Source: Deltaproteobacteria bacterium
GTDB lineage: Bacteria > Desulfobacterota > Desulfomonilia > UBA1062
DNA: 48,484 nucleotides
Assembly (NCBI GenBank): GCA_029552245.1
Contig: JAKPDW010000041.1
Coordinates: forward strand, 1-48,484
Direction of reading: 5' to 3'
Under the pieces are notes generated by a model, which saw nothing but the letters and a program-made list of their open reading frames with translations, had not been told where the DNA came from and ran no database searches. A program made the translations under genes and the position numbers. This document shows, piece by piece, positions 13,781 through 40,657 of the stretch. The number at the start of each line of letters is the position of its first letter. Positions within the stretch are counted from its first letter, which is position 1.

Positions 13781-16345
13781 ATGAAGAAGATCCTGATCGT
13801 TGCCTCTCTCGTGGCGGCCCTTGTCGTGGGGATCCTCGCGGCGCTGCCTTTCGCGATAGACCTGAACAGGCACAAGGCCTCCCTCATCGCGCTCATCGCC
13901 AAGTACACGGACAGGCGCGTGGACTTCGAGCGGATCGACCTCACGGTGCTCACGGGCCTCGGCGCCCGCATAAAGGGACTGCGGGTCTCGGACGACCCGC
14001 GCTTTTCCGCAGGCGACTTTCTCTCCCTGGACGAGGTGCGCGTGAAGGTGGCGCTGCTGCCCCTTCTGAGGAAGGAGATCAGGGTCAGGGAGCTCTCGTT
14101 CGTCAGGCCCTCGGTCATGCTCGTGAGGGGCGAGGACGCCAAGCTCAACGTCTCCACCTTGGTGAAGCCGGGCCCGGGAAAGAAGGAAGAAGGGAAAGAG
14201 AGCGTGCTCGGAGGGGTCATGGCGGCGGGGCTCAAGGTGAAGGACGGAAAGCTCGTCTTCGTCGACAAGAGGCCCGGGAAGGCCGGTGGAGCAATCACCC
14301 TTTCCGACGTGGACCTGGATGTCGACACGATGGACCCGGCAAGGCCCACGGGGTTCACCCTGTCGGCGTCGCTCATGGGGACCGCCGCCCAGAATCTCAA
14401 TGTCATGGGGAGCGTCGGTCCGCTTCCCGGGCGCACCGGAGCGGGACCTCTGCCGATCGACATGCAGGTCGTGATCGACCCGCTCATGCTCGGCTCGCTG
14501 CCGATCGGGAAGAACCCGCTCGCCGGCGGGGCGAAGGTCAAGGCATCGGCCAAGGGTGACCTTGCGGGCGTGGTCGATGCCCGGGTGGAAGCGGACTTCA
14601 CGGGGCTCTCGTTGGCCGGTCGGAAGGGGGGGGTCGATGCCTCGTGCTCGTTCAGGGCGGCCTACGACGGGGCGCGGGGGGGGCTCCTCGTGAAGGAGGG
14701 CGCCTTCACGACGCCAGGCGGCAAGGGGAACTTCACGATCCAGCTTAAGGACATGAAGACCGACCCGTCACTGAGCCTGAACGTGTCGTCGGCCTCGTTC
14801 GCCCCGGCGCCCCTGCTCGAGGGCCTCGGCCTGGGGCGGGCCCAGGCCCTCGGAAAGGTCAAGGTGTCGGGCCCCATGGCCTTCAGGATCGAAGCCCACA
14901 GGTCAAAGGGCTCGATCAGGGTGAGGGCTTCGGTGGACATGCGCCAGGCCGCCCTTGCCTACGGGACGTTCTTCGACAAGCCGGCATCGGTCCCCATGGC
15001 CGCATCCCTGCGCATGGCAGGCACGCCGGAGACGATCTCCATCGAGTCTTTCGAGGTTGCGATCGAACGGGTCGGGATCCACGGATCGGGCAGGCTTTCC
15101 AAGGAGCAGGGGGGCAGGAGGCTCAAAATGGCGATAGCCACCGAGTCTCTCAGGCTCGCGGATGCACGGGCGCTGGTCCCCGTCCTCAAGAAGTACAGCC
15201 CCGAAGGTGTCGTCGTGGCCAAGGCCGAGATGGAGTCCGGGGCGAAGAGGCCGTTTACGCTCGGCCTCAAGGCGAGGTCCGACCGCGTGGCCCTGGTGCT
15301 CGGCGCCAAGGGGGACCGGCCCGCCCAGGGCGCGAAAGTCCTCGAGGCCCCGGCCAGGGCCGAGCTCGACTCGGTGGACCTCTCCCTGGACGCCGTCGGG
15401 CAGAAGGGCGGTCCTTCCGTAAAGGGCACGGTCCTCTCGAGGGGAGGGGTGTTTATGAAGATCCCCTACTCGAGGCTGAGCGCCGACTTCGTCATGAGGG
15501 ACCAGGCGTTCACGGTGACGTCGTTCGACATGAAGACCCTTAAGGGGTCGCTCAAGGGCGGCGCGACCTATGATCTCAAGACGAGGGAGTACACGGTCAA
15601 CCCCGTGTTCACGAACCTCCAGGCCTCCGACCTCATGGACTCGCTGACCGCCTTCAAGGGCGTGTTCTCAGGCGCCATGACGGGGGCGCTCGAGTTGTCC
15701 GGCAACGCCTCGAGACCCGCCATGGAGACGCTCGGCGCGAGGGGGAAGATCCAGATCGCGAACGGGCAGTGGAAGAACTTCGACCTGGCGGGCCAGGTAC
15801 TCTCGAGCGTGCTCGGTGTCCCGGGCGCGGGCGAGATACTGGGTCTTGTGCGCTCCGAGGTCCAGCGCTACGAGACCACCCAGTTCGAGTCCATGGAGAC
15901 GAACGTGGATCTCGATCGCAAAGTGGTCAGGATCGGCTCCATGAGACTCATGAACATCGCGAGCGGCAGGGACACGGACACCGAGTCGAACCTCAGGGGG
16001 ACGATATCCATGGAGACCCAGGCCGTGGACCTCAAGGGGGTCGTGGTGCTGCCGAAGCGTTTCTCGCAGAAGGCAACGGCGCGCGCCGAGGCCTTCAGGG
16101 AGGTCATGAACGATCAGGGAAGGCTCGTGCTCCCCGTCTCCATCGGCGGGACCATCAAGAGGCCGATTCCTACCGTGGATGTCAGGAAGCTCTCCGGCGC
16201 CCTCGCGAGGTACTACACGACCAAGGCCCTGGAAAAGGGCGTGCAGAGACTCAGGGAACGAGCGCCCGTGCCGCCGGGCGCCCAGGAAGAGACGCGCAGG
16301 GCGATCGAGGAGACCATCGAGGGGCTCTTCAAGAAGAAGAAATGA
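13781..16345 (+). CDS. AsmA-family protein
   Basis: 854 residues. One N-terminal hydrophobic anchor (ILIVASLVAALVVGILAALP) leads into FAIDLNRHKASLIALIAKYT, the typical start of AsmA proteins, followed by a long repetitive beta-rich periplasmic body and the AsmA C-terminal module around residues 600-720 (NGQWKNFDLAGQVLSSVLG; ETNVDLDRKVVRIGSMRL). The C-terminus is basic (GLFKKKK). AsmA-like proteins form lipid-carrying bridges between inner and outer membranes in other Gram-negative bacteria, so a role in envelope phospholipid transport is likely. ATG at 13781 has AAGGAGGG at 13769-13776. It is the last gene of the Mrp-DUF89-AsmA run. Confidence 0.88.
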   Translation: MKKILIVASLVAALVVGILAALPFAIDLNRHKASLIALIAKYTDRRVDFERIDLTVLTGLGARIKGLRVSDDPRFSAGDFLSLDEVRVKVALLPLLRKEIRVRELSFVRPSVMLVRGEDAKLNVSTLVKPGPGKKEEGKESVLGGVMAAGLKVKDGKLVFVDKRPGKAGGAITLSDVDLDVDTMDPARPTGFTLSASLMGTAAQNLNVMGSVGPLPGRTGAGPLPIDMQVVIDPLMLGSLPIGKNPLAGGAKVKASAKGDLAGVVDARVEADFTGLSLAGRKGGVDASCSFRAAYDGARGGLLVKEGAFTTPGGKGNFTIQLKDMKTDPSLSLNVSSASFAPAPLLEGLGLGRAQALGKVKVSGPMAFRIEAHRSKGSIRVRASVDMRQAALAYGTFFDKPASVPMAASLRMAGTPETISIESFEVAIERVGIHGSGRLSKEQGGRRLKMAIATESLRLADARALVPVLKKYSPEGVVVAKAEMESGAKRPFTLGLKARSDRVALVLGAKGDRPAQGAKVLEAPARAELDSVDLSLDAVGQKGGPSVKGTVLSRGGVFMKIPYSRLSADFVMRDQAFTVTSFDMKTLKGSLKGGATYDLKTREYTVNPVFTNLQASDLMDSLTAFKGVFSGAMTGALELSGNASRPAMETLGARGKIQIANGQWKNFDLAGQVLSSVLGVPGAGEILGLVRSEVQRYETTQFESMETNVDLDRKVVRIGSMRLMNIASGRDTDTESNLRGTISMETQAVDLKGVVVLPKRFSQKATARAEAFREVMNDQGRLVLPVSIGGTIKRPIPTVDVRKLSGALARYYTTKALEKGVQRLRERAPVPPGAQEETRRAIEETIEGLFKKKK

Positions 16346-19349: not shown

Positions 19350-19827
19350 GCGTGACCCCTTGGCTGCTGGTAGTCGAGAAGAGCCTAAGCGATGAGGCCG
19401 AGACAGTCAACGGCAAACAACCCCCTGTGCAGGTGTGCATGAAGACGGCAAGGGGTGCCGGCATCGAGACCCCATCAGGAAAGCGGGAAGGTCTCGTGCG
19501 GGAAGGCGGCCTCTCGCCGGCAGCGGCCCCAGTGGATCCAGCGGCGACTGTCTCAGGCGTGTTTCCCCTTCCCGGGAAAGGCATCCATGGGTGCGGGGCG
19601 CGAGAACAAAGCGAAGGCCGGCCCTCCTTGAACGCATGAGACGGTCGGCGCACGAGCCGGTCTCCCGCCCCGGCGCACTTGGAGCACGCAAGCCGCGGCG
19701 CACGGCCGAGCCCGCAGGCTCACGCCCCGGTCTCAGGGCATGGAGACCACGCAAACGGCGTGGAGGCGCTTTGACCTTTGGGCACGGCTTGGGCCATAGG
19801 CGCCTTGGACCAGGAAAGGCGGCGACG
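19350..19827. other. Intergenic gap
   Basis: 478 bases between the divergently placed VOC gene start and the end of the RNase Z-like gene. No gene, promoter or convincing repeat was found; open frames here carry no recognisable protein. Confidence 0.4.
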
Positions 19828-27117: not shown

Positions 27118-27160
27118 TTGACACGATGGAGCGTTTTCACAATAATGAGGATTCATTACT
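27118..27160 (+). promoter_or_regulatory. Promoter with TAATGA-N4-TCATTA operator (site A)
   Basis: TTGACA (27118-27123), exact 17-bp spacer, AATAAT (27141-27146). The palindrome TAATGA-GGAT-TCATTA (27143-27158) overlaps the -10 box, the layout of repression by promoter occlusion. The next gene is the large lipoprotein at 27616, which would have a leader of about 460 bases. Confidence 0.75.
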
Positions 27161-30210: not shown

Positions 30211-30262
30211 TTGCAACAAGGGGGTTTCACAGGTATATTGAAAATAATGAGGTTTCATTATT
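30211..30262 (+). promoter_or_regulatory. Promoter with operator (site B) of the RND operon
   Basis: TTGCAA (30211-30216), 17-bp spacer, TATATT (30234-30239), then AATAATGA-GGTT-TCATTATT (30243-30262), an 8-bp perfect inverted repeat around a 4-bp centre, at the expected start of transcription. The RND gene begins 240 bases further on. Confidence 0.8.
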
Positions 30263-30370
30263 AGAGTTGAATGGGGCGGATGGGTGCCGGAAGACCGAGC
30301 ACCGCGATGGCTTGAGACCAGTAAGGACATGCATGCCAATACCATGGAAGAGAGTGTTGTCCCGTGATTG

Positions 30371-30412
30371 ATAATGAGTTTTCATTATTAAAGCATTGCG
30401 AGAGCCTATACA
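30371..30412 (+). promoter_or_regulatory. Second operator (site C) upstream of the RND gene
   Basis: ATAATGA-GTTT-TCATTAT (30371-30388), same 6-4-6 core. A possible second -10, TATACA (30407-30412), lies downstream, so the site could cover a -35 region, but no good -35 box is seen. Confidence 0.65.
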
Positions 30413-30485: not shown

Positions 30486-32927
30486 ATGAGGAGGCTCATC
30501 AGGTTCAGCATCGAGCACCCGTTTGTCGTGATCGCCGCCGTCGCCCTGGTCACGGTGGCGTTCGCCACCCAGGTCCCGAAGGTGCGGATGGACCCGAGGG
30601 TCGAGATCATCCTCCAGGAGAACAACCCTGTCGAGCGTGTCTACGCCGAGAACAAGAAGGTCTTCGAGCCGTACGCGGACATCCTCGTCGGCATGATCCA
30701 CGAAGACGTCTTCGAGCCCGCGACGCTCGCCAAGCTCGACAGGGTCGCCCGCGAGATCGAGGGGATAAAGGGCGTCAAGAAGGTTCAGCACCTCCTCAAC
30801 GTCAAGAACATCCAGGGGTCAAACGGGGGTCTCGACGTTTCCCCCATGGTCGAAGAGGGCACGGTGCCGTCGAGCCCTGAAGAGGCTGAGCTCCTGAGGG
30901 GAAAGGTCTCCTCCTGGGAGGTCTACGAGAATACCTACATTACAAGGGATCACCGGGGGGCCGCCATCGTCGCCACCCTCGAGGACGGCGTGGAGACGGA
31001 CCAGATCGTCCCCATCTACTACGCCATCGACGCCATCGTGAAGAAGTACGAGGGGCCCGAGCGTTTCTTCATATCCGGGACCAAGGTGATCGAGGCGCTC
31101 CAGGGCCACTACATGATCAAGGACCTCATCTTCCTGCCGCCCCTGGTCTGCGTGGTCCTGCTCGTTTCGCTCTTCCTCTTCTTCAGGCACTTGAGGGGCA
31201 TGCTGCTCCCCCTCGTCTCGGTCGCCATCTCCGCCGTGTGGACCGTGGGCCTCATGGCCTTGTCGCACATCCCGCTCACCATCGTGACGACGGCCCTGCC
31301 GGTCGCCCTCATGGCGTGCGGATCGGCCTACGGCATCCACGTGGTGGAGAACGTCATGGCGGACTCCTTCGCGGGCATGAGGGGGAAGGGGGGAATAGAC
31401 AACGCGGTCGCGAGGATCAGGATCCCGGTCTTCATGGCCGCGCTCACCACCATGGCGGCTTTCATCTCCCTGTGCACGACGCCCATCGTGCCCTTGACCC
31501 ACTTCGGCCTCCTCTCGGCGTTCGGCATCTTCACGGCCATGGGCCTGGCCCTCACCTTCGTGCCCGCCATGCTCACCATCCTCGAGGCGCGGGGACGTGA
31601 GATCGTCCCCCATCACCACACGAGACGGGACCTGGTCGGCCCTCTCCTCCACTGGTTTTCCAGGGTCAGCATCAAGCACAGCAGGCTCGTGATCGTGCTG
31701 AGCTTCGTCGTGCTCGCGGTGTCGATCTTCTTCGGCAGGCACGTCAAGAGCGACCTCAACCTCATCGAGGACTTCCGGGAGCGAAGCCCCATCAGGACCG
31801 CGGACAGGATCCTCAACGAGAAGTTCGGCGGGACTTCGCTCTTCCAGGTGGTGTTCGAGACAAAGGGCCAGGACGACATCAAGGACCCTGCGGTCCTCAG
31901 GGACATGGAGAGGCTGCAGGCCCGGCTCATGGACATCGACCAGGTGGGCAAGGCCGTGTCCATCGTGGACTTCGTCAAGCGCATGAACCAGGCCATGCAC
32001 GACGGCGACCCGGCCTTCTACACCATACCGGAGTCCAGGGAACTCGTGGCCCAGTACCTCCTCCTCTTCTCGTTCTCAGGCGGGGGGGAGGATCTCGACA
32101 GCTTCGTCGACTATAACTACCAGAAAGGGCAGATCCTCCTCCAGATGAAGACCCAGAGCGGGTACCTCGCAAGCGAGGTGGAGGAGGTGGTGAGGCGGTT
32201 CAACGGCTCTGAAGGCAAGGCGGAAAGGCTCGAGAACGTGTTCACCACGGGACTCGCCATGCTCGCCAAGGAGTTCAACCGCGTCGTGGTGACGAGCCAG
32301 GTGAGGAGCTTCATCTTCTCGTTCGTGCTCTGTTTCGTCATCACGGCAGGGGTATTCAGGTCTCTCAGGCTGGGGGTCTACAGCATGATGCCGCTCATCG
32401 TGCCCATCGCCCTGGACTTCGCCATCATGGGTGTCTCGGGCATCAGGCTGAACGCCGCAACCGCGACGGTCGCCAGCATCGACATCGGCATGGGGATCGA
32501 CTACTCGATCCACCTCCTCAACCGCTACAGGCACGAGAGGCGTTACGGCCAAAGCGTCGAGGAGGCCCTCTCGACGGCCATCCACACCTCGGGAAGGGGC
32601 ATCGTCTACAACGCCCTCGCCGTGGCCGCCGGGTTCCTTGTCCTGGCGCCTTCGCAGTTCGTGATCATCTCGCAGATGGGGATCCTGGTCGCGGTGGACA
32701 TGCTCACCATCGCGGTATCGGCCCTGACCTTCCTGCCTGCCTGCATCATGCTGCTGCCTCCCAGGCTCGAGGCGGAACCCGTGACGGTGCCGACAGGCAA
32801 GCCCGTGCTCGCCCTCGTGACGAAAGGGCTTCCCAAGAGGGACCATGCCGTTGTACGCTACGACGAAGAAGAGGAAGAAGGGCCCGGCCAAGGGCAGGAA
32901 AAACTCGTACGGGAGGTTCAGCAATGA
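30486..32927 (+). CDS. RND/MMPL-family exporter
   Basis: 813 residues, the size of the HpnN/MMPL branch of RND permeases. Topology repeats twice: an N-terminal helix (FVVIAAVALVTVAFATQV), a large periplasmic domain, then a block of five to six helices (LIFLPPLVCVVLLVSLFLFF; GIFTAMGLALTFVPAML), and again from LVIVLSFVVLAVSIFFG. The intramembrane motifs GSAYGIHVVENV and GIDYSIHLLNRYRHE are the conserved GxxY-H signatures of this branch; the second keeps its aspartate. Such pumps move lipids or hydrophobic molecules from inner membrane to periplasm using proton flow. The C-terminal cytoplasmic tail is acidic. The stop overlaps the LolA-like start (ATGA), so translation is coupled. Confidence 0.93.
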   Translation: MRRLIRFSIEHPFVVIAAVALVTVAFATQVPKVRMDPRVEIILQENNPVERVYAENKKVFEPYADILVGMIHEDVFEPATLAKLDRVAREIEGIKGVKKVQHLLNVKNIQGSNGGLDVSPMVEEGTVPSSPEEAELLRGKVSSWEVYENTYITRDHRGAAIVATLEDGVETDQIVPIYYAIDAIVKKYEGPERFFISGTKVIEALQGHYMIKDLIFLPPLVCVVLLVSLFLFFRHLRGMLLPLVSVAISAVWTVGLMALSHIPLTIVTTALPVALMACGSAYGIHVVENVMADSFAGMRGKGGIDNAVARIRIPVFMAALTTMAAFISLCTTPIVPLTHFGLLSAFGIFTAMGLALTFVPAMLTILEARGREIVPHHHTRRDLVGPLLHWFSRVSIKHSRLVIVLSFVVLAVSIFFGRHVKSDLNLIEDFRERSPIRTADRILNEKFGGTSLFQVVFETKGQDDIKDPAVLRDMERLQARLMDIDQVGKAVSIVDFVKRMNQAMHDGDPAFYTIPESRELVAQYLLLFSFSGGGEDLDSFVDYNYQKGQILLQMKTQSGYLASEVEEVVRRFNGSEGKAERLENVFTTGLAMLAKEFNRVVVTSQVRSFIFSFVLCFVITAGVFRSLRLGVYSMMPLIVPIALDFAIMGVSGIRLNAATATVASIDIGMGIDYSIHLLNRYRHERRYGQSVEEALSTAIHTSGRGIVYNALAVAAGFLVLAPSQFVIISQMGILVAVDMLTIAVSALTFLPACIMLLPPRLEAEPVTVPTGKPVLALVTKGLPKRDHAVVRYDEEEEEGPGQGQEKLVREVQQ

Positions 32928-33712
32928 TGTTCAGGGGTTTTGCGGCCGCGGTGCTCCTCGCCGTAGGTCTCGTCCTCATGTCCCAGGCATCGGCCCACGC
33001 CGCCGGGATGACCGCGTACCAGATCGTCAAGAAGTCCGAAGACCTGCTCGACCAGGCCAAGGACAGCAAGGCCGACATGTTCATGGTCCTCGTCAACAGC
33101 AAGGGTGAGAGGCGCGAACGCACCCTGAACGCGTACGTGAAGCGCTACGGGAACAACAAGTCCAAGTCCATCGTCTTCTTCCGCTCGCCGGCCGATGTCA
33201 AGGGCACCAGCTTCCTCGTGTGGACGGACGAGAACAAGAAGGACCAGCAGTGGCTCTACCTGCCGGCGTTGCAGCGGGTGAGGCAGATCAGCGCGAGCGG
33301 CAAGGGCGAGAGCTTCATGGGCACCGAGTTCACCTTCTACGACATGGGGAGCCACGACATAGACGATTACACCTACACCCTGCTGAGGGAGGAGCCCTTC
33401 GGGGGTGAGGATTGTTACGTGATCGAGGCGTTACCGAAGAAAGTCGAGTTCTACTCCAAGGTCGTGATCTGGATACGCAAGGGCAACTTCGTTCCCGCCC
33501 GGGCCGACCTGTACGACCCGAAGGGCCAGTTCGAGAAGCAGGGGATCTTCAAGGACGTGAAGAACATCCAGGGGATCAACACCCCCACCCGCATCGAGAT
33601 GCACAACAAGATCAACGGGCGCAGCACCATCATCGAGCTCAAGAACATCGTGTACGACTCGGGCCTCAAGGACGACCTGTTCACCGAGAGGTACATGACG
33701 AGGGGAGGGTGA
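32924..33712 (+). CDS. LolA-like outer-membrane lipoprotein-sorting protein
   Basis: 262 residues. Signal peptide (FAAAVLLAVGLVLMSQASAHAA) then a periplasmic half-barrel. WLYLPALQRVRQISASGKGE and SFMGTEFTFYDM are the highly conserved core of the LolA-like family (PF17131) that accompanies RND/MMPL exporters. It should carry the exported lipid-like substrate across the periplasm. ATG at 32924 overlaps the RND stop codon; AGGTTCAGCA precedes it. Its own stop overlaps an in-frame GTG of the barrel gene. RND, LolA-like and DUF1302-like barrel therefore form a complete inner-membrane to outer-membrane route. Confidence 0.92.
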   Translation: MMFRGFAAAVLLAVGLVLMSQASAHAAGMTAYQIVKKSEDLLDQAKDSKADMFMVLVNSKGERRERTLNAYVKRYGNNKSKSIVFFRSPADVKGTSFLVWTDENKKDQQWLYLPALQRVRQISASGKGESFMGTEFTFYDMGSHDIDDYTYTLLREEPFGGEDCYVIEALPKKVEFYSKVVIWIRKGNFVPARADLYDPKGQFEKQGIFKDVKNIQGINTPTRIEMHNKINGRSTIIELKNIVYDSGLKDDLFTERYMTRGG

Positions 33713-33741
33713 TCGGCGCATCCTCAGCCCGGGCTCCTGCC

Positions 33742-36270
33742 ATGAGCACGAGAAACGAGACGTCGCTGAACGACCGGCCGGGGCCTCAGGCACGCATCCA
33801 CCCGCGAGCCTCCTCGGGGAACGACGGTGGTCGTCGCTGGCGCGGCAGAGAGAGGGTGTGGGCACGAAGGGCACGCACCGGCGTCGAACCGTCCCCTGGC
33901 CGCCTGGCCGGAGGCCCGGAAGGAAAAGAACCTGGCTCGTCGTCCCTGATCCGTGGGTGCCTTCTCGTGGTCGTGTCGGCCGCCCTGGCCGCCTTTTGGC
34001 CATGGGCCCTCGCCTTGGCCGAACCGGCGCCCTTGGCGGGAAGCGAAGAGACGGTACGCGGTGCCGCTCCCGGCGACCTCGACCCCTTCGGCGCCTCAGG
34101 CTCAGGGTGTCTCGGGCCGTCCGGGACCATTGCCCGGGTTCCGCAAGGCCGTCTCTCGAATGACAGAAGAGGCCCTGCGGGCTCTCCTGCGCCGTTCGAC
34201 GGGGTGGTCCCAGCCCTGCGTCGCAGCGAGACACCCGGGACGGATGCGCGGCCCGGCACCCTCGATAGCCTTGCATGCCCGGCCGACGATGTGCCGTTCG
34301 CCGCGCCGACGACGGATGTGCAGCCCGTACCCCTCGACAGTGTCGCATGGGCATCCGCGAGTCCAGCGCAAACGGCGCCTCTCGTACTCGCACAACAGGA
34401 CACGCCCCGAGCGATGGGGCAGGCGCCGTCCCCACGCGGTGCGGATACAGCCGCAGGGCCGCAAGAGGGTGCGGGGGCCGCTGAGGGCGGTCAAGGGGAT
34501 GCCTCACCGGGCGAACCCCCTGCGCAAGGGCCGACGGCTGGAGAGGCCGGGGGGGATGGAGGCCGGGAAAGGTCCGCCGGGCTCGAGGAAGGCGGCCGGG
34601 CAGGGGATGGAACCTCCGGGCAACCGGTGAACGCGCCTCCTCCGGGCGTCGCGGATGCAGCCTCCACGCAGGACAGTCCCACGGGAGACGCCCAGGCCCA
34701 AGAGGAAGGGCCCATGGCTGGTGAAGGGCAGGTCCGAGGGCCCGACGAGGGAGGTACGGGAGGGGATTCAGGCGGGCAAGGTCCAACGGGGACAGCCGAG
34801 GTCGGGGAGGAGACCGAACCCCCCTCGCAGGACGCCCCGGGGGAAGAGAGCGGGTGCTCGACAAGCGGGTACATGGAGGTCAGGGGCGTCTCTGCATTGA
34901 GAAAGGAAAGTCCCGACGAGGACCCATCCTGGGAGCTCGGTCTCCAGGTCGAGGGGAAGACAGCGCCGTGGAACGCGTACAAGGTCTCGCTCGTGTCGGT
35001 CCAGGACGGCAAGGTCATCGAGCCGAGCCACGGCGGCGCCTTCCATGCCTTCAACCGCGTCTACCAGGACATGACCCCCTACATCGACATAGACGAGGCA
35101 TACCTCGACGTCTACACGGGCCGGGTGGACATCAGGCTCGGGATCCAGAAGTTCGCCTGGGGGAGGCTCGACGAGATCAATCCCACCGACAACCTCAACC
35201 CCGAGGATCTCACGGAAGGCGGGACGAACGACGAGGTGGACCGCAAGATCGGCGTGCCCGCGCTCAAGGTGAACGCCTACTCGGACGCGGCGAACGTCGA
35301 GGTGGCCTTCGTGCCCTTCTATGTGCCGTACCGGTTGCCGGACCGCGAGGAACGGTGGTTCCCCAGGGTGCTCGTGCCCCCCGAGAGCGTGGACGCCGGG
35401 GCAACCGTGGGCAGGGTCCCCGTGCGGACGTATTACCGTGACATAGACCTCCCGCCAAGGACCATGCGGAACGCCGAGGCAGGTATCAGGGTCTCCAGGC
35501 TCGTCAGCGGCTGGGACCTCTCGGCCAGCTACTTCACCGGGTTCGATCCCATGCCCCTGACCGAATCCGTGGTGGACGTGGACGTGACCCTCGTCAACCC
35601 CCTCTCGCTCGAGTACACCGCGGCCTCGAGGGTCACCCTCATGCCGGCCCTCCACCGGATCCACGTCTTCGGGTTCGACTTCACGGGCACGCTGGGAGAC
35701 TTCACGCTCCGGGGCGAATACGCATACTTCCACGGCAAGCGGTACAACCGCAGGCTCGAAAGCGTGCTCGACGAGCTCGTCACGAGGGAGACGATCGACG
35801 ACATGTACTCGGACTTCCTCGTGGATTACTTCGCGTCCGGCGGGAGGACGACCTCGAAGAGCTTCAGGCTCGATGCCGAGGCCGTCTCCAAGATGGACTC
35901 CATGAAATACGGCTTCGGCGTCGACTACATCCACGGCGACACGAGCCTGAGCGTACAGCTGATACAGGAGTTCGTGCCGGACCACGACAACGCGCGCCCC
36001 GTCTATTTCGTGAAGGACGGCTTCGACACCCTCTCGACCTTTCTCCTCAAGCAGTTCTTCCTCCAAAACACCCTGGAGCTCAACCTCAGGGTCGCCTACG
36101 ATCTCGAGTTCCACGACCACCTGGTCAAGCCCTCGGCGAGGTATCACTTCACCGACAGGCTGCAGGGGACCGTGGGCGCGATAGTGATCGGCGGCGGCAG
36201 GAAAGACTCGCTCCTCGGGCAGTTCGGGATGAACGACCAGGTCTACGCGCAGCTTCGGTGCTCTTTCTGA
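33742..36270 (+). CDS. DUF1302-like outer-membrane barrel with a long disordered N-terminal region
   Basis: 842 residues if it starts at ATG 33742. An export signal (LLVVVSAALAAFWPWALALA) lies only at about residues 72-91, after a basic, unusually long leader. Residues ~100-375 are low-complexity, rich in G, A, P, E and Q, with no fold. From about 380 the barrel starts: DEAYLDVYTGRVDIRLGIQK, FAWGRLDEINPTDNLNPEDL and FVPFYVPYRLPDREERW are the DUF1302 porin hallmarks, and the protein ends on LRCSF with a terminal F. The start is unsure: GTG 33709 overlaps the previous stop and GTG 33856 would shorten the leader. It is the likely exit channel of the RND-LolA route. Confidence 0.8.
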   Translation: MSTRNETSLNDRPGPQARIHPRASSGNDGGRRWRGRERVWARRARTGVEPSPGRLAGGPEGKEPGSSSLIRGCLLVVVSAALAAFWPWALALAEPAPLAGSEETVRGAAPGDLDPFGASGSGCLGPSGTIARVPQGRLSNDRRGPAGSPAPFDGVVPALRRSETPGTDARPGTLDSLACPADDVPFAAPTTDVQPVPLDSVAWASASPAQTAPLVLAQQDTPRAMGQAPSPRGADTAAGPQEGAGAAEGGQGDASPGEPPAQGPTAGEAGGDGGRERSAGLEEGGRAGDGTSGQPVNAPPPGVADAASTQDSPTGDAQAQEEGPMAGEGQVRGPDEGGTGGDSGGQGPTGTAEVGEETEPPSQDAPGEESGCSTSGYMEVRGVSALRKESPDEDPSWELGLQVEGKTAPWNAYKVSLVSVQDGKVIEPSHGGAFHAFNRVYQDMTPYIDIDEAYLDVYTGRVDIRLGIQKFAWGRLDEINPTDNLNPEDLTEGGTNDEVDRKIGVPALKVNAYSDAANVEVAFVPFYVPYRLPDREERWFPRVLVPPESVDAGATVGRVPVRTYYRDIDLPPRTMRNAEAGIRVSRLVSGWDLSASYFTGFDPMPLTESVVDVDVTLVNPLSLEYTAASRVTLMPALHRIHVFGFDFTGTLGDFTLRGEYAYFHGKRYNRRLESVLDELVTRETIDDMYSDFLVDYFASGGRTTSKSFRLDAEAVSKMDSMKYGFGVDYIHGDTSLSVQLIQEFVPDHDNARPVYFVKDGFDTLSTFLLKQFFLQNTLELNLRVAYDLEFHDHLVKPSARYHFTDRLQGTVGAIVIGGGRKDSLLGQFGMNDQVYAQLRCSF

Positions 36271-36736
36271 GCCGCCCGGTCCTAAGCCTTTCACCGGCAC
36301 GTTAACAGGCGGCCCCCTGTGATGCTTGTTGTCAGACAGCCCCCGCATCGGCGAGGACAGCCTGCCCGGTACGTTTCAGAACGTCTCCCTGTGATGCCTG
36401 CCCGGCGTGAATGCAGGCATGCCGAGGCGGGCAGGGTGCGCCACCCGGGACCGCGCCGCCCGGTGTGCCGGGGATACCCCGGCCTGATCACCCTGCCCGG
36501 GTTATCGTTCTTCCTCTCCCGGGTCTGCTCAGCTCGGTGTCCCGGGGATACCCAGGTATGCCTGCGTGAAGGATCGGCCGCGCCGGGAGAGGCGCGCCCG
36601 GAACGCCTGCTTCGGCTCCTGCATGGGGCGGGGACATGCCTCAGGCGCGTCTTCGAGGATGCCCATCGTGTGTGTCGCTTGAGAAGGACCGCCCCGTGAG
36701 GAAGAACACCATGCAGAACAGGGGCGCACAAAAGTC
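36271..36736. repeat. Gap with four units at 72-74 bp spacing
   Basis: 466 bases without a gene. CCCTGTGATGC occurs at 36315 and 36387; CGGTGTGCCGGGGATACCC at 36461 recurs with one change at 36535. The four starts are 72, 74 and 74 bp apart, and the two kinds of unit show only slight likeness to each other. GCCTGC (36396-36401) can pair with GCAGGC (36413-36418). Confidence 0.5.
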
Positions 36737-36783
36737 TTGCATGGGGACGAGATCTTTGTTATAAAAATAATGAAGCTTCATTA
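36737..36783 (+). promoter_or_regulatory. Promoter with operator (site D), no gene downstream
   Basis: TTGCAT (36737-36742), 17-bp spacer, TATAAA (36760-36765), then the perfect 16-bp palindrome TAATGAAGCTTCATTA (36768-36783). It has the same layout as site B. The only genes on the plus strand beyond it start more than 7 kb away. Confidence 0.8.
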
Positions 36784-36893
36784 CCAACGCAGGGGCACAC
36801 TGGTATCGGGAGATACAGGGGAGCAGGTGACAGGACGGTCACTCTCTTCAGCCCTCCTGCCCGGCCGGGCAGGAGGGCGTCTTGTGCCTCCTT
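36772..36893 (+). ncRNA. Candidate small RNA or very short gene under operator D
   Basis: A transcript from the site D promoter would start near 36772 and reach the perfect hairpin at 36851-36878 after about 105 bases. No protein family is visible. One tiny open frame begins at GTG 36825 after AGGGGAGCAG and ends at TGA 36891-36893 (22 codons), which would run through the hairpin, so a non-coding RNA is the simpler reading. This is inference from promoter, operator and hairpin only. Confidence 0.4.
36851..36878. terminator. Perfect 28-bp palindrome
   Basis: GCCCTCCTGCCCGG (36851-36864) is followed directly by its exact reverse complement (36865-36878). On the plus strand GTCTTGTGCCTCCTT follows, a loose T-rich tail. 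It could also end the minus-strand PAS gene transcript about 200 bases beyond its stop. Confidence 0.6.
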
Positions 36894-36898
36894 GAAAT

Positions 36899-37038
36899 GA
36901 ACCCGGCTTACCTTTGCGTCGGGGATCTCCGCAACCAGCCCAATCGCCGCAACGAGGTCTGGCGCCACTTTGACGAACCCGGCGGACCTTCGCGCCTGGG
37001 ATTAAGGCATCCAGCCAAGCGCAGCGACAAGGTCGAGC
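36899..37038. repeat. Direct repeat pair of about 64 bp, period 76
   Basis: Units at 36899-36963 and 36975-37038 share GAACCCGGC, ACCTT-GCG-C-GGGAT, GCA-CCAGCC-A and AC-AGGTC in the same order, roughly three bases in four. The offset of 76 is not a multiple of three, so the repeat does not reflect a repeated protein. Confidence 0.7.
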
Positions 37039-37080
37039 GCGCCTCTCTTTGGTGCGCTCTTGAAGTGAGGGCGCAAGCGC

Positions 37081-40000
37081 CTAGCCGAGGGTCATGAGGT
37101 ACGAGCGGAGGTTGGTCTTTGAGTTCTTGAGCCCCAGCTTGTCGCGGATGTTGTTCCGGTGGAACTCCACGGCCCGCTCGGAGATGCCGAGCACCTCTGC
37201 GATCTGCTTGGTGGACTTCCCGTCCTTGATGAGGTCCGCCACCTGGATCTCCGTGGGCGTCAGGTTGAGGTAGTGTGAAGAGAGCTTTTTCAGGAAAGGG
37301 GAGATGATGTCGTTCAGGTTCGATTCGAGGATCTCCACGTAGGTCTTCTGCTTCTCGTCCAGGTTGCCCATCTTGAGCTTCTCCACGTAGGGCAGCACGA
37401 GTTCCTTGATGTTCGCGAGCACCTTGTCCTCGAGTTCCTGCTTGTCCTGCTCCCCCCTCTTGAGGAGGACCTTGAGCGCCGTGTTGGCCTCCTCGAGGTT
37501 CAGGGATTTCATCCGCAGCTCTTCTTCCTTCTGGAGCAGGCTCTGTTCCGCCTGCCTGCGCTCCTCGATCTCCCTCTTGAGCCTGATGTTCGCCCTGACG
37601 AGTTCCTCGGTCCGCTCCGCCACCCGCTGCTCGAGCCCCTCGTAGGCCTTCTGGAGCTTCTGCTCCGCCACGATGCGCTCGGTGATGTCCACGAAGGAGG
37701 CCATGAGGCAGATGGGCGTTCCGTCGTCGTTCTTGACCATGTTCGCGGCGAGCTGCACCACGATGAGCCTCCCGCTCTTCTTGCGCGCCGTGACCTCGCC
37801 GGTCCATGTGCCTTCCTCGATCACGGACTTCAGGATGCGCTCTGCGTCGCTCTCGTTCTCTGCGAACGATATGATCGAGCGCCCTATGACCTCGGAGGGG
37901 TCATTTCCCCCCCAGAGGTCGAGGAACGCACTGTTCACGTAGGTGATGGTGCCCGTGAGGTCGCCTATGACGATGCCGTTGATGGAGGACGCGATGGCGA
38001 AGTCCTTGATCCTGAGCTCCTCCTCCATGCGCTTTCGATCCGTGATGTCCACGAAGGAGTCCATCATGCACACGGGCTCGCCCTTGTCGTTCCTCACGAG
38101 GCTCGCCGAGAGGTGCACCGTGACGGGCGAGCCGTCCTTGCGGTAGCCCGAGACCTCCCCGGACCAGCTCCCCTCCTCGAGCACCAGGCGGTAGATCGTC
38201 AGGGCCTCTTCTTGCGACTGCGCGAGGGAAAGGACGGACGTGCCGATCACCTCCGAGGGATCCTCGGCCCCCCACATCCTGAGCGCCGCCTCGTTGACGT
38301 AGATGATGTTGCCCTCGAGGTCGCTGATGCCGATGCCGTTGATGGAGGAGGCGATGGCGAAGTCCTTGATCCTGAGCTCCTCCTCCATGCGCTTGCGCTC
38401 GGTGATGTCCACGAAGGAGTACATCATGCACACGGGCTCGCCCTTGTCGTTCCTCACGAGGCTCGCCGAGAGGTGCACCGTGACGGGCGAGCCGTCCTTG
38501 CGGCTGCCCGAGACCTCCCCGGAGAAGCTGCCGTGTTCGAGCACCGCCGTTATGACCGCCTGGGCTTCGTCCTTGGACGAGACGAGCGACATGATCGACG
38601 ACCCGACGACCTCGCCGGGGTCGGATGCGCCCAACATCCTGAGCGCCGCCTCGTTGACGTAGGTGACAATGCCCTCGAGGTCGGTGATCCCGATGCCGTC
38701 GATGGAGGAGGCGATGGCGAAGTCCTTGATCCTGAGCTCCTCCTCCATGCGCTTTCGGTCCGTGATGTCCACGAAGGAGTCCATGCCGCAGACGGGCTCA
38801 CCCTTCTCGTTCTTGACGAGGCTCACCGACAGGTGCACGGTGATGGGCGACCCGTCCTTGCGGTAGCCCGAGACCTCCCCCGACCAGCTGCCGTTTTCGA
38901 GCACCGACCGGTAGATCTCCATGGCCTCCTCCTGGGACCTCGCAAAGGAGAAGGCCGACCGGCCGATGACCTCCGAGGGGTCCTCGGCGCCCCACATCCT
39001 GAGGGCCGCCTCGTTGACGTAGATGACGTTGCCCTCGAGGTCCGTGATCCCGATGCCGTCGATGGAGGACGCGATGGCGAGGTCCTTGATCCTCAGTTCC
39101 TCTTCCATGCGCTTGCGTTCCGTGATGTCCAGGAACGAGTCCATGGTGCAGATGGGCTCACCCCTCTCGTTCTTCACCAGGCTCGCGGTGAGGTGCACGG
39201 TGATGAGGGACCCGTCCTTCCTCCTGCCGGAGATCTCGCCCGACCAGCCGCCCTTCTCCATGAACTCGGAGAAGACCCTGATGGCCTCCTCCTGGGACTC
39301 GGCGAACTCCAGGGCGGACCGGCCGACGACCTCCGAGGGGTCGTCGGCGCCCCACATCTTGAGCGCCGCCTCGTTGACATAGAGGATGTTGCCCTCGAGG
39401 TCGCCGATGCCGATGCCGTTGAGAGAGGAGGCGATCGCGCACTCCTTGATCCTCAGCTCGTTCTCGATCCTCTTGTGCTCCGTCACATCGATGAAGGAGC
39501 ACATGAGGTGGGCCGGCTCCCCATGCTCGTCTTTCACCAGGCTCGCCGTGAGGTGCACCGTGATGGGCGCTCCGCTCATGGTCCTCCCGGTTATCTCGCC
39601 GGACCAGCTGCCTTTCTCGAGCACGATCGAGAGGATCTCTCTTGCCTCCTGTTCGGACTCGGCGAACACGGTCACGTGCCTGCCCATGATCTCCGAGGGG
39701 TCTTTGGCGCCCCACATGTCGAGGGCGGCCTTGTTCACGTAGGTGATGGTGCCGGAGGGGTCGCCTATGACGATGCCGTTGATGGAGGACGCGATCGCCG
39801 ATTCCTTGACCCTGAGCTCCTCCTCCATGCGCTTGCGCTCCGTGATGTCGATGAAGGAGCACACGATGCAGACAGGCCTCCCCGCGTCGTCCTTCACGAG
39901 GCTCGCGGAGAGCAGCACGGTCACCGCCTCGCCGTTTTTCCTCCAGCCGGAGACCTCGCCCGACCACTCGCCCTTGACAAGCACCGTCTCGAGTATCCCG

Positions 40001-40254
40001 AGCGCCTCCTGCTCGGACTTGGCGAATATGGTCGCGCGCTTGCCGATGATGTCGGAGGGGTCGTCGGTACCGTATATGGAGAGCGCGGCCTTGTTCACGT
40101 AGGTGACGACGCCGTCCAAGTCGCCTATGGCCATCCCGTTGATGGACGAGGCGATGGCATAGTCCTTTATGTGGATGTCTTCGGCCGCACCACCGTGGGT
40201 CGTCAGGCCGTCGGACTCTGTACGGGCGGTTCTGTCCACGCCGTGCTCATCCAT
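37081..40254 (-). CDS. Seven-PAS sensor with LuxR-type DNA-binding domain
   Basis: 1057 residues. Seven PAS domains follow one another, each beginning with a variant of IKDFAIASSINGIGISDLEG and ending with S-VDITERKRMEEELR; each unit is 120 residues (360 bp). After them comes a coiled coil (about residues 870-985) and a C-terminal LuxR/GerE helix-turn-helix (LTPTEIQVADLIKDGKSTKQ, then ERAVEFHRNNIRDKLGLKN). There is no membrane segment, kinase or receiver domain, so it looks like a cytoplasmic one-component regulator. ATG at 40254 has GCGGAGGAA upstream; the longer frame lacks a site. Units 4-7 are the most alike. Target genes are unknown; it is convergent with the RND operon. Confidence 0.88.
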   Translation of the reverse strand: MDEHGVDRTARTESDGLTTHGGAAEDIHIKDYAIASSINGMAIGDLDGVVTYVNKAALSIYGTDDPSDIIGKRATIFAKSEQEALGILETVLVKGEWSGEVSGWRKNGEAVTVLLSASLVKDDAGRPVCIVCSFIDITERKRMEEELRVKESAIASSINGIVIGDPSGTITYVNKAALDMWGAKDPSEIMGRHVTVFAESEQEAREILSIVLEKGSWSGEITGRTMSGAPITVHLTASLVKDEHGEPAHLMCSFIDVTEHKRIENELRIKECAIASSLNGIGIGDLEGNILYVNEAALKMWGADDPSEVVGRSALEFAESQEEAIRVFSEFMEKGGWSGEISGRRKDGSLITVHLTASLVKNERGEPICTMDSFLDITERKRMEEELRIKDLAIASSIDGIGITDLEGNVIYVNEAALRMWGAEDPSEVIGRSAFSFARSQEEAMEIYRSVLENGSWSGEVSGYRKDGSPITVHLSVSLVKNEKGEPVCGMDSFVDITDRKRMEEELRIKDFAIASSIDGIGITDLEGIVTYVNEAALRMLGASDPGEVVGSSIMSLVSSKDEAQAVITAVLEHGSFSGEVSGSRKDGSPVTVHLSASLVRNDKGEPVCMMYSFVDITERKRMEEELRIKDFAIASSINGIGISDLEGNIIYVNEAALRMWGAEDPSEVIGTSVLSLAQSQEEALTIYRLVLEEGSWSGEVSGYRKDGSPVTVHLSASLVRNDKGEPVCMMDSFVDITDRKRMEEELRIKDFAIASSINGIVIGDLTGTITYVNSAFLDLWGGNDPSEVIGRSIISFAENESDAERILKSVIEEGTWTGEVTARKKSGRLIVVQLAANMVKNDDGTPICLMASFVDITERIVAEQKLQKAYEGLEQRVAERTEELVRANIRLKREIEERRQAEQSLLQKEEELRMKSLNLEEANTALKVLLKRGEQDKQELEDKVLANIKELVLPYVEKLKMGNLDEKQKTYVEILESNLNDIISPFLKKLSSHYLNLTPTEIQVADLIKDGKSTKQIAEVLGISERAVEFHRNNIRDKLGLKNSKTNLRSYLMTLG
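37583..40130 (-). repeat. Seven tandem 360-bp PAS-coding units
   Basis: Matching positions recur every 360 bp exactly (for example near 37943, 38303, 38663, 39023, 39383, 39743, 40103). Long near-identical stretches, such as 38023-38160 against 38383-38520, show recent duplication or gene conversion. Confidence 0.85.
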
Positions 40255-40657
40255 CGCCGTTCCTCCGCTTTGGGTCGTGTGTGCGCCTGCTGGCGGGATG
40301 TCCCATCGCAAGTCGGTGGGTCATGCGTGAGGTGCTTCTACCATACGAGGTCGCGGCTGGGCAACATGGTGCCAAAGGGGCTCTCGTCGCCGCGTCCGGC
40401 CCTCCTGGACGTGGGGCCTCATGGCCCCGGGAGCCGCTGCTCTTCTTCCACAGGGCGCCTCGGGCCTCGACGCACAGGGCGTCAGGGTCTCTGCGCGTCT
40501 CTGCGACTGCCTTCGACGGTAGGCCCCGGTCGAGATTCGCTGGGTGCGGCGGCAGGCCTCGCACCCGCACTGCATCCATACCCTTGAGAACGAGACCGAA
40601 AGGCATACTCAGGCCGTCGACGTCAGGCCCCCGGCCGTGCGAAAACCCGCATATGCA
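40255..40657. other. Intergenic gap
   Basis: 403 bases between the start of the PAS gene and the end of the next minus-strand gene. No gene, terminator or clear promoter was found. Confidence 0.35.

Follow-up and report, generated by a model that had tools for sequence, protein, structure and literature searches.

Introduction

In Vibrio cholerae, the small RNA FarS comes from the 3' UTR of fabB and, together with FadR, acts on fadE in a mixed feed-forward loop (PMC9438474). The V. cholerae RNAs OppZ and CarZ are likewise 3'-UTR products; they are autoregulatory and silence their own operons (PMC7398697). MalH and MicX occupy the same genomic location, MalH being processed and MicX being made from its own promoter (PMC9438474).

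The locus described here lies in a stretch of 48,484 nucleotides from an uncultured deltaproteobacterium (contig JAKPDW010000041.1, assembly GCA_029552245.1), analysed as a whole and referred to as the window. It resembles FarS in that the putative RNA is linked to an operon with a lipid-related role, that the regulon includes acyl-CoA dehydrogenase genes as well, and that the location is in a 3' UTR, here in sister species; it differs in that this genome carries a stand-alone, operator-controlled copy, that no sequence kinship is claimed, and that any target or processing of the RNA is putative. As with OppZ and CarZ, a 3'-UTR RNA is associated with a multi-gene operon (a transport operon in the case of OppZ) and in this genome its seed can pair with the leader of its own operon, but this pairing is predicted and is not conserved in relatives. 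The parallel with MalH and MicX is a single 3'-end location from which one lineage would process its RNA while another would transcribe it from a dedicated promoter, with the differences that the separate promoter here bears the operator of the operon itself and that one copy is found at another locus. Finally, the palindromic operator at start points (AATGANNNNTCATT) recalls TetR-type regulators of lipid and efflux genes, such as FadR of Bacillus and AcrR, and TetR genes adjoin the acyl-CoA dehydrogenase site, although the candidate protein scores far under the cut-offs of the NCBIfam models.

Results

The export operon and its neighbourhood

The features of the locus are compiled in Table 1. 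The start of the DUF1302-like gene is uncertain, its conserved portion being 34873-36270. In relatives, the orthologous operons also have the DUF1302 gene followed by the convergent PAS-LuxR gene. The latter encodes seven closely similar PAS units and is syntenic across genera. The 802-aa lipoprotein-like gene adjoins the MMPL operon and is under the same operator in relatives. A literature search for this type of operon with a TetR regulator returned mycobacterial MmpL papers only. Genomes are numbered as follows: G000 is this genome, G001 and G004 belong to the same genus, and G011, G016 and G018 to a second genus.

Table 1. Coordinates of genes, operators and elements of the candidate RNA; positions refer to the window unless a contig is named.
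Feature	Position	Strand	Remarks
Operator before the lipoprotein-like gene	27142..27159	.	with TTGACA-17-AATAAT promoter
Large lipoprotein-like gene, 802 aa	27616..30024	+	no Pfam/NCBIfam family
Operator 1 before the MMPL export operon	30244..30261	.	
GAAGAGAGTG in the MMPL leader, between the two operators	30347..30356	+	fully complementary to the seed; species-specific candidate target
Operator 2 before the MMPL export operon	30371..30388	.	
MMPL/RND-type transporter gene	30486..32927	+	PF03176, 3.7e-39
LolA-like outer-membrane lipoprotein-sorting protein gene	32924..33712	+	PF17131, 3.9e-64
DUF1302-like outer-membrane protein gene	33713..36270	+	PF06980, 22.6 bits, just below cut-off
Candidate promoter TTGCAT-17-TATAAA	36737..36765	+	read directly; -35 starts 30 nt before operator; in other regulon promoters -35 is at -33/-34 and -10 ends at -4 to -6
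Operator ATAATGAAGCTTCATTAC, 18 bp	36767..36784	.	covers the expected start point, ~36772
Inferred small RNA	36772..36889	+	inferred from promoter, operator and hairpin
ACTCTCTTC box	36841..36849	+	candidate C/U-rich seed
Perfect 28-bp palindrome (hairpin)	36851..36878	+	terminator-like, without U-run
PAS-repeat/LuxR-type regulator gene, convergent	37081..40311	-	syntenic in relatives
Operator before two acyl-CoA dehydrogenase-like genes	C2:15533-15550		TetR genes flanking

One operator connects the export genes, an acyl-CoA dehydrogenase operon and the candidate RNA

When the operator pattern ATAATGANNNNTCATTAT was searched in the 3.27-Mb genome, five places were found with up to two mismatches, compared with two for the reversed control, and five compared with none when a single mismatch was allowed. 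Four of the five sites are in the window, clustered around the export operon, and the fifth is at C2:15533, before genes whose naming as acyl-CoA dehydrogenases comes from reading the sequence. Pattern search and synteny show that this operator precedes the same genes in relatives as in this genome. The best promoters at seven operator sites have a -35 element starting 32-35 nt, and a -10 element ending 3-6 nt, before the operator; judged from the sequences, this spacing is the geometry of a putative repressor at the start point.

On contig C2, the acyl-CoA dehydrogenase operon has a TetR gene on either side, the two being paralogous (one at 14328-15005, the other starting near 19,460 with its TetR domain at 19553-19693), and either of them could, from its position, be the regulator of the operator. 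A TetR gene adjoins the operator in G004 and G007 too. On contig C6 of this genome (229-242), a related palindrome, AATGAATTTTCATT, lies upstream of another TetR gene, after which come genes of TolC, membrane-fusion and RND type; the palindrome is probably a different operator.

Downstream of the DUF1302 gene, the operator that the preliminary description placed at a likely start point is indeed read there, with a perfect 14-bp core, AATGAAGCTTCATT, at 36769-36782; with up to three mismatches, this core has four matches in the window, compared with 0.41 expected. The accompanying promoter is weaker than first described. Its hexamers (TTGCAT at 36737-36742 and TATAAA at 36760-36765, by direct reading) match the sigma-70 consensus at 8 of 12 positions, a score that 38% of shuffled versions of the surrounding 80 nt also reach, and the promoter fails a sigma-70 scan. 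The label “near-consensus” is therefore too strong, and the credibility of this candidate rests more on its position against the operator than on its letters.

A box and a hairpin form a module

The perfect palindrome that had been noted about 80 nt beyond the promoter was found as described (GCCCTCCTGCCCGG/CCGGGCAGGAGGGC), and the letters after it, GUCUUGUGCC, contain no U-run. Directly before this strong GC hairpin is the stretch ACUCUCUUC, and we refer to the two together as the module. No gene follows on that strand, in agreement with the preliminary description, the next one being the convergent PAS-LuxR gene.

The ACTCTCTTC box occurs 13 times in the genome, compared with 19 for the reversed control, and a strong stem follows only the copy at 36841. 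Its interpretation as a general terminator motif was rejected on these counts. In this genome, the module lies about 560-570 nt beyond the end of the DUF1302 gene, with the promoter and the operator in between. The inserted segment (36271-36836) matched nothing else in 25 genomes, this one included, and the region 36840-37085, considered as a dispersed repeat, was dismissed because it matches itself alone. No Rfam family was found for the module or the RNA above the gathering cut-off. Just 3' of the palindrome there is an imperfect 42-nt direct repeat (76%; 36899-36940 and 36975-37016, 76 nt apart), unique in the genome.

The module is conserved at the 3' end of the export operon in relatives

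In G004, G011, G016 and G018, a box and a hairpin that align with window positions 36836-36889 are found 16-35 nt after the DUF1302 stop codon, within the 3' UTR of the gene that ends the export operon. The box reads (T)ACTCTCTTC in relatives, and GCTCTCTTC in G016; its CTCTCTTC portion is identical in all six species, including G001 (see below), while the flanks of the box vary. Compensatory changes were observed at 5 of 11 hairpin pairs across the six species, and 97% of the cells in the hairpin alignment are paired, compared with 38-53% when the alignment is slid. Structure conservation, proposed beforehand as a check, is seen for this module in five relatives. Proper U-runs follow the hairpin in G011, G016 and G018; the one in G004 is poor, and none is present in the window or in G001.

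In a class-wide search of a 42-genome set, strong matches were limited to six genomes of two genera. A 30-bit match in G003 was set aside; it lies 3' of a chemotaxis-receptor gene, has no operator, and its box is broken. The module was not found in relatives of genera g4 and g9, in some of which the DUF1302 and PAS-LuxR genes almost touch. Two g4 genomes have perfect palindromes of 53-57 nt (GGGGTCAGGTCTCAACAT...) at the 3' end of DUF1302, with the gene end repeated (L089, 7170-7380; L091, 9670-9840); from their sequences, they look like a small mobile repeat inserted there.

A second stand-alone copy lies behind the same operator

A covariance model, R1, was built from five copies, G001 being left out, and run over 24 family genomes; alignments A5 and A7, which misplace the G004 stem, were left out of the models. 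Beyond its own members, R1 gave one strong match, on the minus strand of G001 (C40:25156-25210; 50 bits, E 1.1e-7), the next match having 26.6 bits. The pattern search, independently of R1, had placed an operator on this strand about 126 nt upstream of the module; the promoter that follows the operator, TTGACT-17-TATTAT, matches the consensus at 10 of 12 positions. Unlike in the window, the operator is just upstream of the -35 element and not over the start point. The locus, between dGTPase-like and convergent ligase-like genes (named from reading the sequence), is unrelated to the export operon, and the G001 assembly contains no DUF1302.

The stand-alone copies of G000 and G001 share the order of operator, promoter, 70-100 nt, box and hairpin at different loci, and their 5' parts have no resemblance. 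A further model, R3, made from G001, G018, G016 and G011 only, with the window and G004 left out, was searched against 114 kb; its two top matches were the G004 copy (33.2 bits) and window positions 36838-36886 (25.7 bits), followed by one of 13.1 bits. The operators, the conserved module and the two stand-alone arrangements are thus present in the sequences themselves.

Predicted structure and pairing of the RNA

The RNA would start at about 36772 and end at 36886-36893. Its predicted fold (36772-36889) has -57.8 kcal/mol and a z-score of -3.9, which becomes -1.4 without the palindrome. An outer stem joining 36791-36799 with 36885-36893 was rejected, since with the palindrome removed it is not beyond chance (z -1.4). 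The seed is predicted to be paired in this RNA, with unpaired probabilities of 0-0.23. A gene for Hfq is present (71 bits, G000:C27).

The predicted pairing of the seed with GAAGAGAGTG at 30347 in this genome has -26.4 kcal/mol and p 0.004; the window also contains a handful of further sites whose pairing is equal or stronger. In five relatives, such self-targeting of the MMPL leader is at chance level. Purine-rich, GGAAGAAAGA-like stretches occur near the same place of the leader in G004, G016 and G018, and pair poorly. Among 22 tests at operon start regions, two gave values below 0.05, neither common between species, and the operon genes that were examined yielded no conserved target. The proposal that the RNA tunes envelope mRNAs in a feed-forward design is kept here as a hypothesis, because the leader pairing is not reproduced in relatives and no operon-start site is shared.

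Discussion

We consider it rather probable, from the sequence comparisons, that the locus is a small RNA gene under the repressor of the export operon, homologous to an RNA of that operon's 3' UTR in sister species. The earlier claim that both are switched by the same regulator stands as far as the arrangement goes, given that the same operator precedes both and that the module is found behind it again in G001; the switching itself is predicted. The preliminary description did not foresee that the RNA is linked to an element in the 3' UTR of its own regulon. The 3' end of the RNA is kept in five relatives, as a message tail in four and as a separate gene in one, and the RNA is therefore probably a real regulator, as far as can be predicted.

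The most durable alternative, though in our judgement an unlikely one, is that the hairpin simply terminates the export operon and the box is part of its context, the operator and promoter being a stray or decaying copy and any short transcript a by-product. A terminator agrees with the position of the module, which closes the operon in four relatives and has ordinary U-runs after it in three of them, and with the presence of only one strong hairpin after DUF1302 in the window, the weak promoter, and the lack of a conserved target. However, a terminator would not account for a box that is invariant between variable flanks and unused at other terminators of this genome, and the g4 relatives do without the module. 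Its recurrence beside the same operator at the unrelated G001 locus would also have to be a coincidence, of order <=1e-3 by our own estimate.

That the locus is a collapsed operon, in which promoter, operator and terminator remain after gene loss from a duplicated copy, appears improbable. Promoter and hairpin do represent both ends of the regulon operons with only about 80 nt between them, and nothing related to the ~560-nt insert was found in 24 other genomes, but the loss would have had to happen independently in G000 and in G001, each time at a different locus and leaving 70-100 nt, and the promoter flanks are unlike those of the operon promoters beyond the operator and hexamers. Still less probable is an operator acting as a decoy or titration site with no functional transcript, which would suit the weak promoter but not the conserved module directly downstream in two species. 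A 22-aa peptide gene (MTGRSLSSALLPGRAGGRLVPP) from the GTG that was first given at 36825 and is actually at 36827 has GGGGAG closely upstream and is hardly credible, because the distance from box to stem varies from 3 to 6 nt among species, not in multiples of three, so that no reading frame is shared and no peptide is conserved across the module.

In the mechanism that we infer for a small RNA gene under the operator of the export operon, the transcription of the RNA, the choice of TetR protein, control by repression, and the pairing with its targets are all predicted. The 3' module would be the working part of the RNA. A TetR-type protein would repress the lipoprotein, MMPL, LolA-like and DUF1302 export genes, the acyl-CoA dehydrogenase operon and the small RNA alike, and upon its release the export proteins and the RNA would rise together. 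The strong GC hairpin would end and protect the RNA, and the C/U-rich stretch may pair with purine-rich ribosome-binding regions with the help of Hfq. Where the module belongs to the 3' UTR of the operon mRNA, as in the sister species, it would therefore be cut from the message or end it. A more extended history is possible, if tentative: that this RNA family has moved between the 3'-UTR tail of the export operon and a free gene that keeps the operator, in two species and at two loci, with the export operon controlling itself through its leader in this species.

Few small RNAs have been described in uncultured deltaproteobacteria. The present results provide, in these organisms, evidence at the level of sequence for an RNA that appears tied to lipid or envelope export and would share the repressor of the export genes. 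With a free gene in two species and a message tail in four, the route from an mRNA tail to an RNA gene becomes directly testable.
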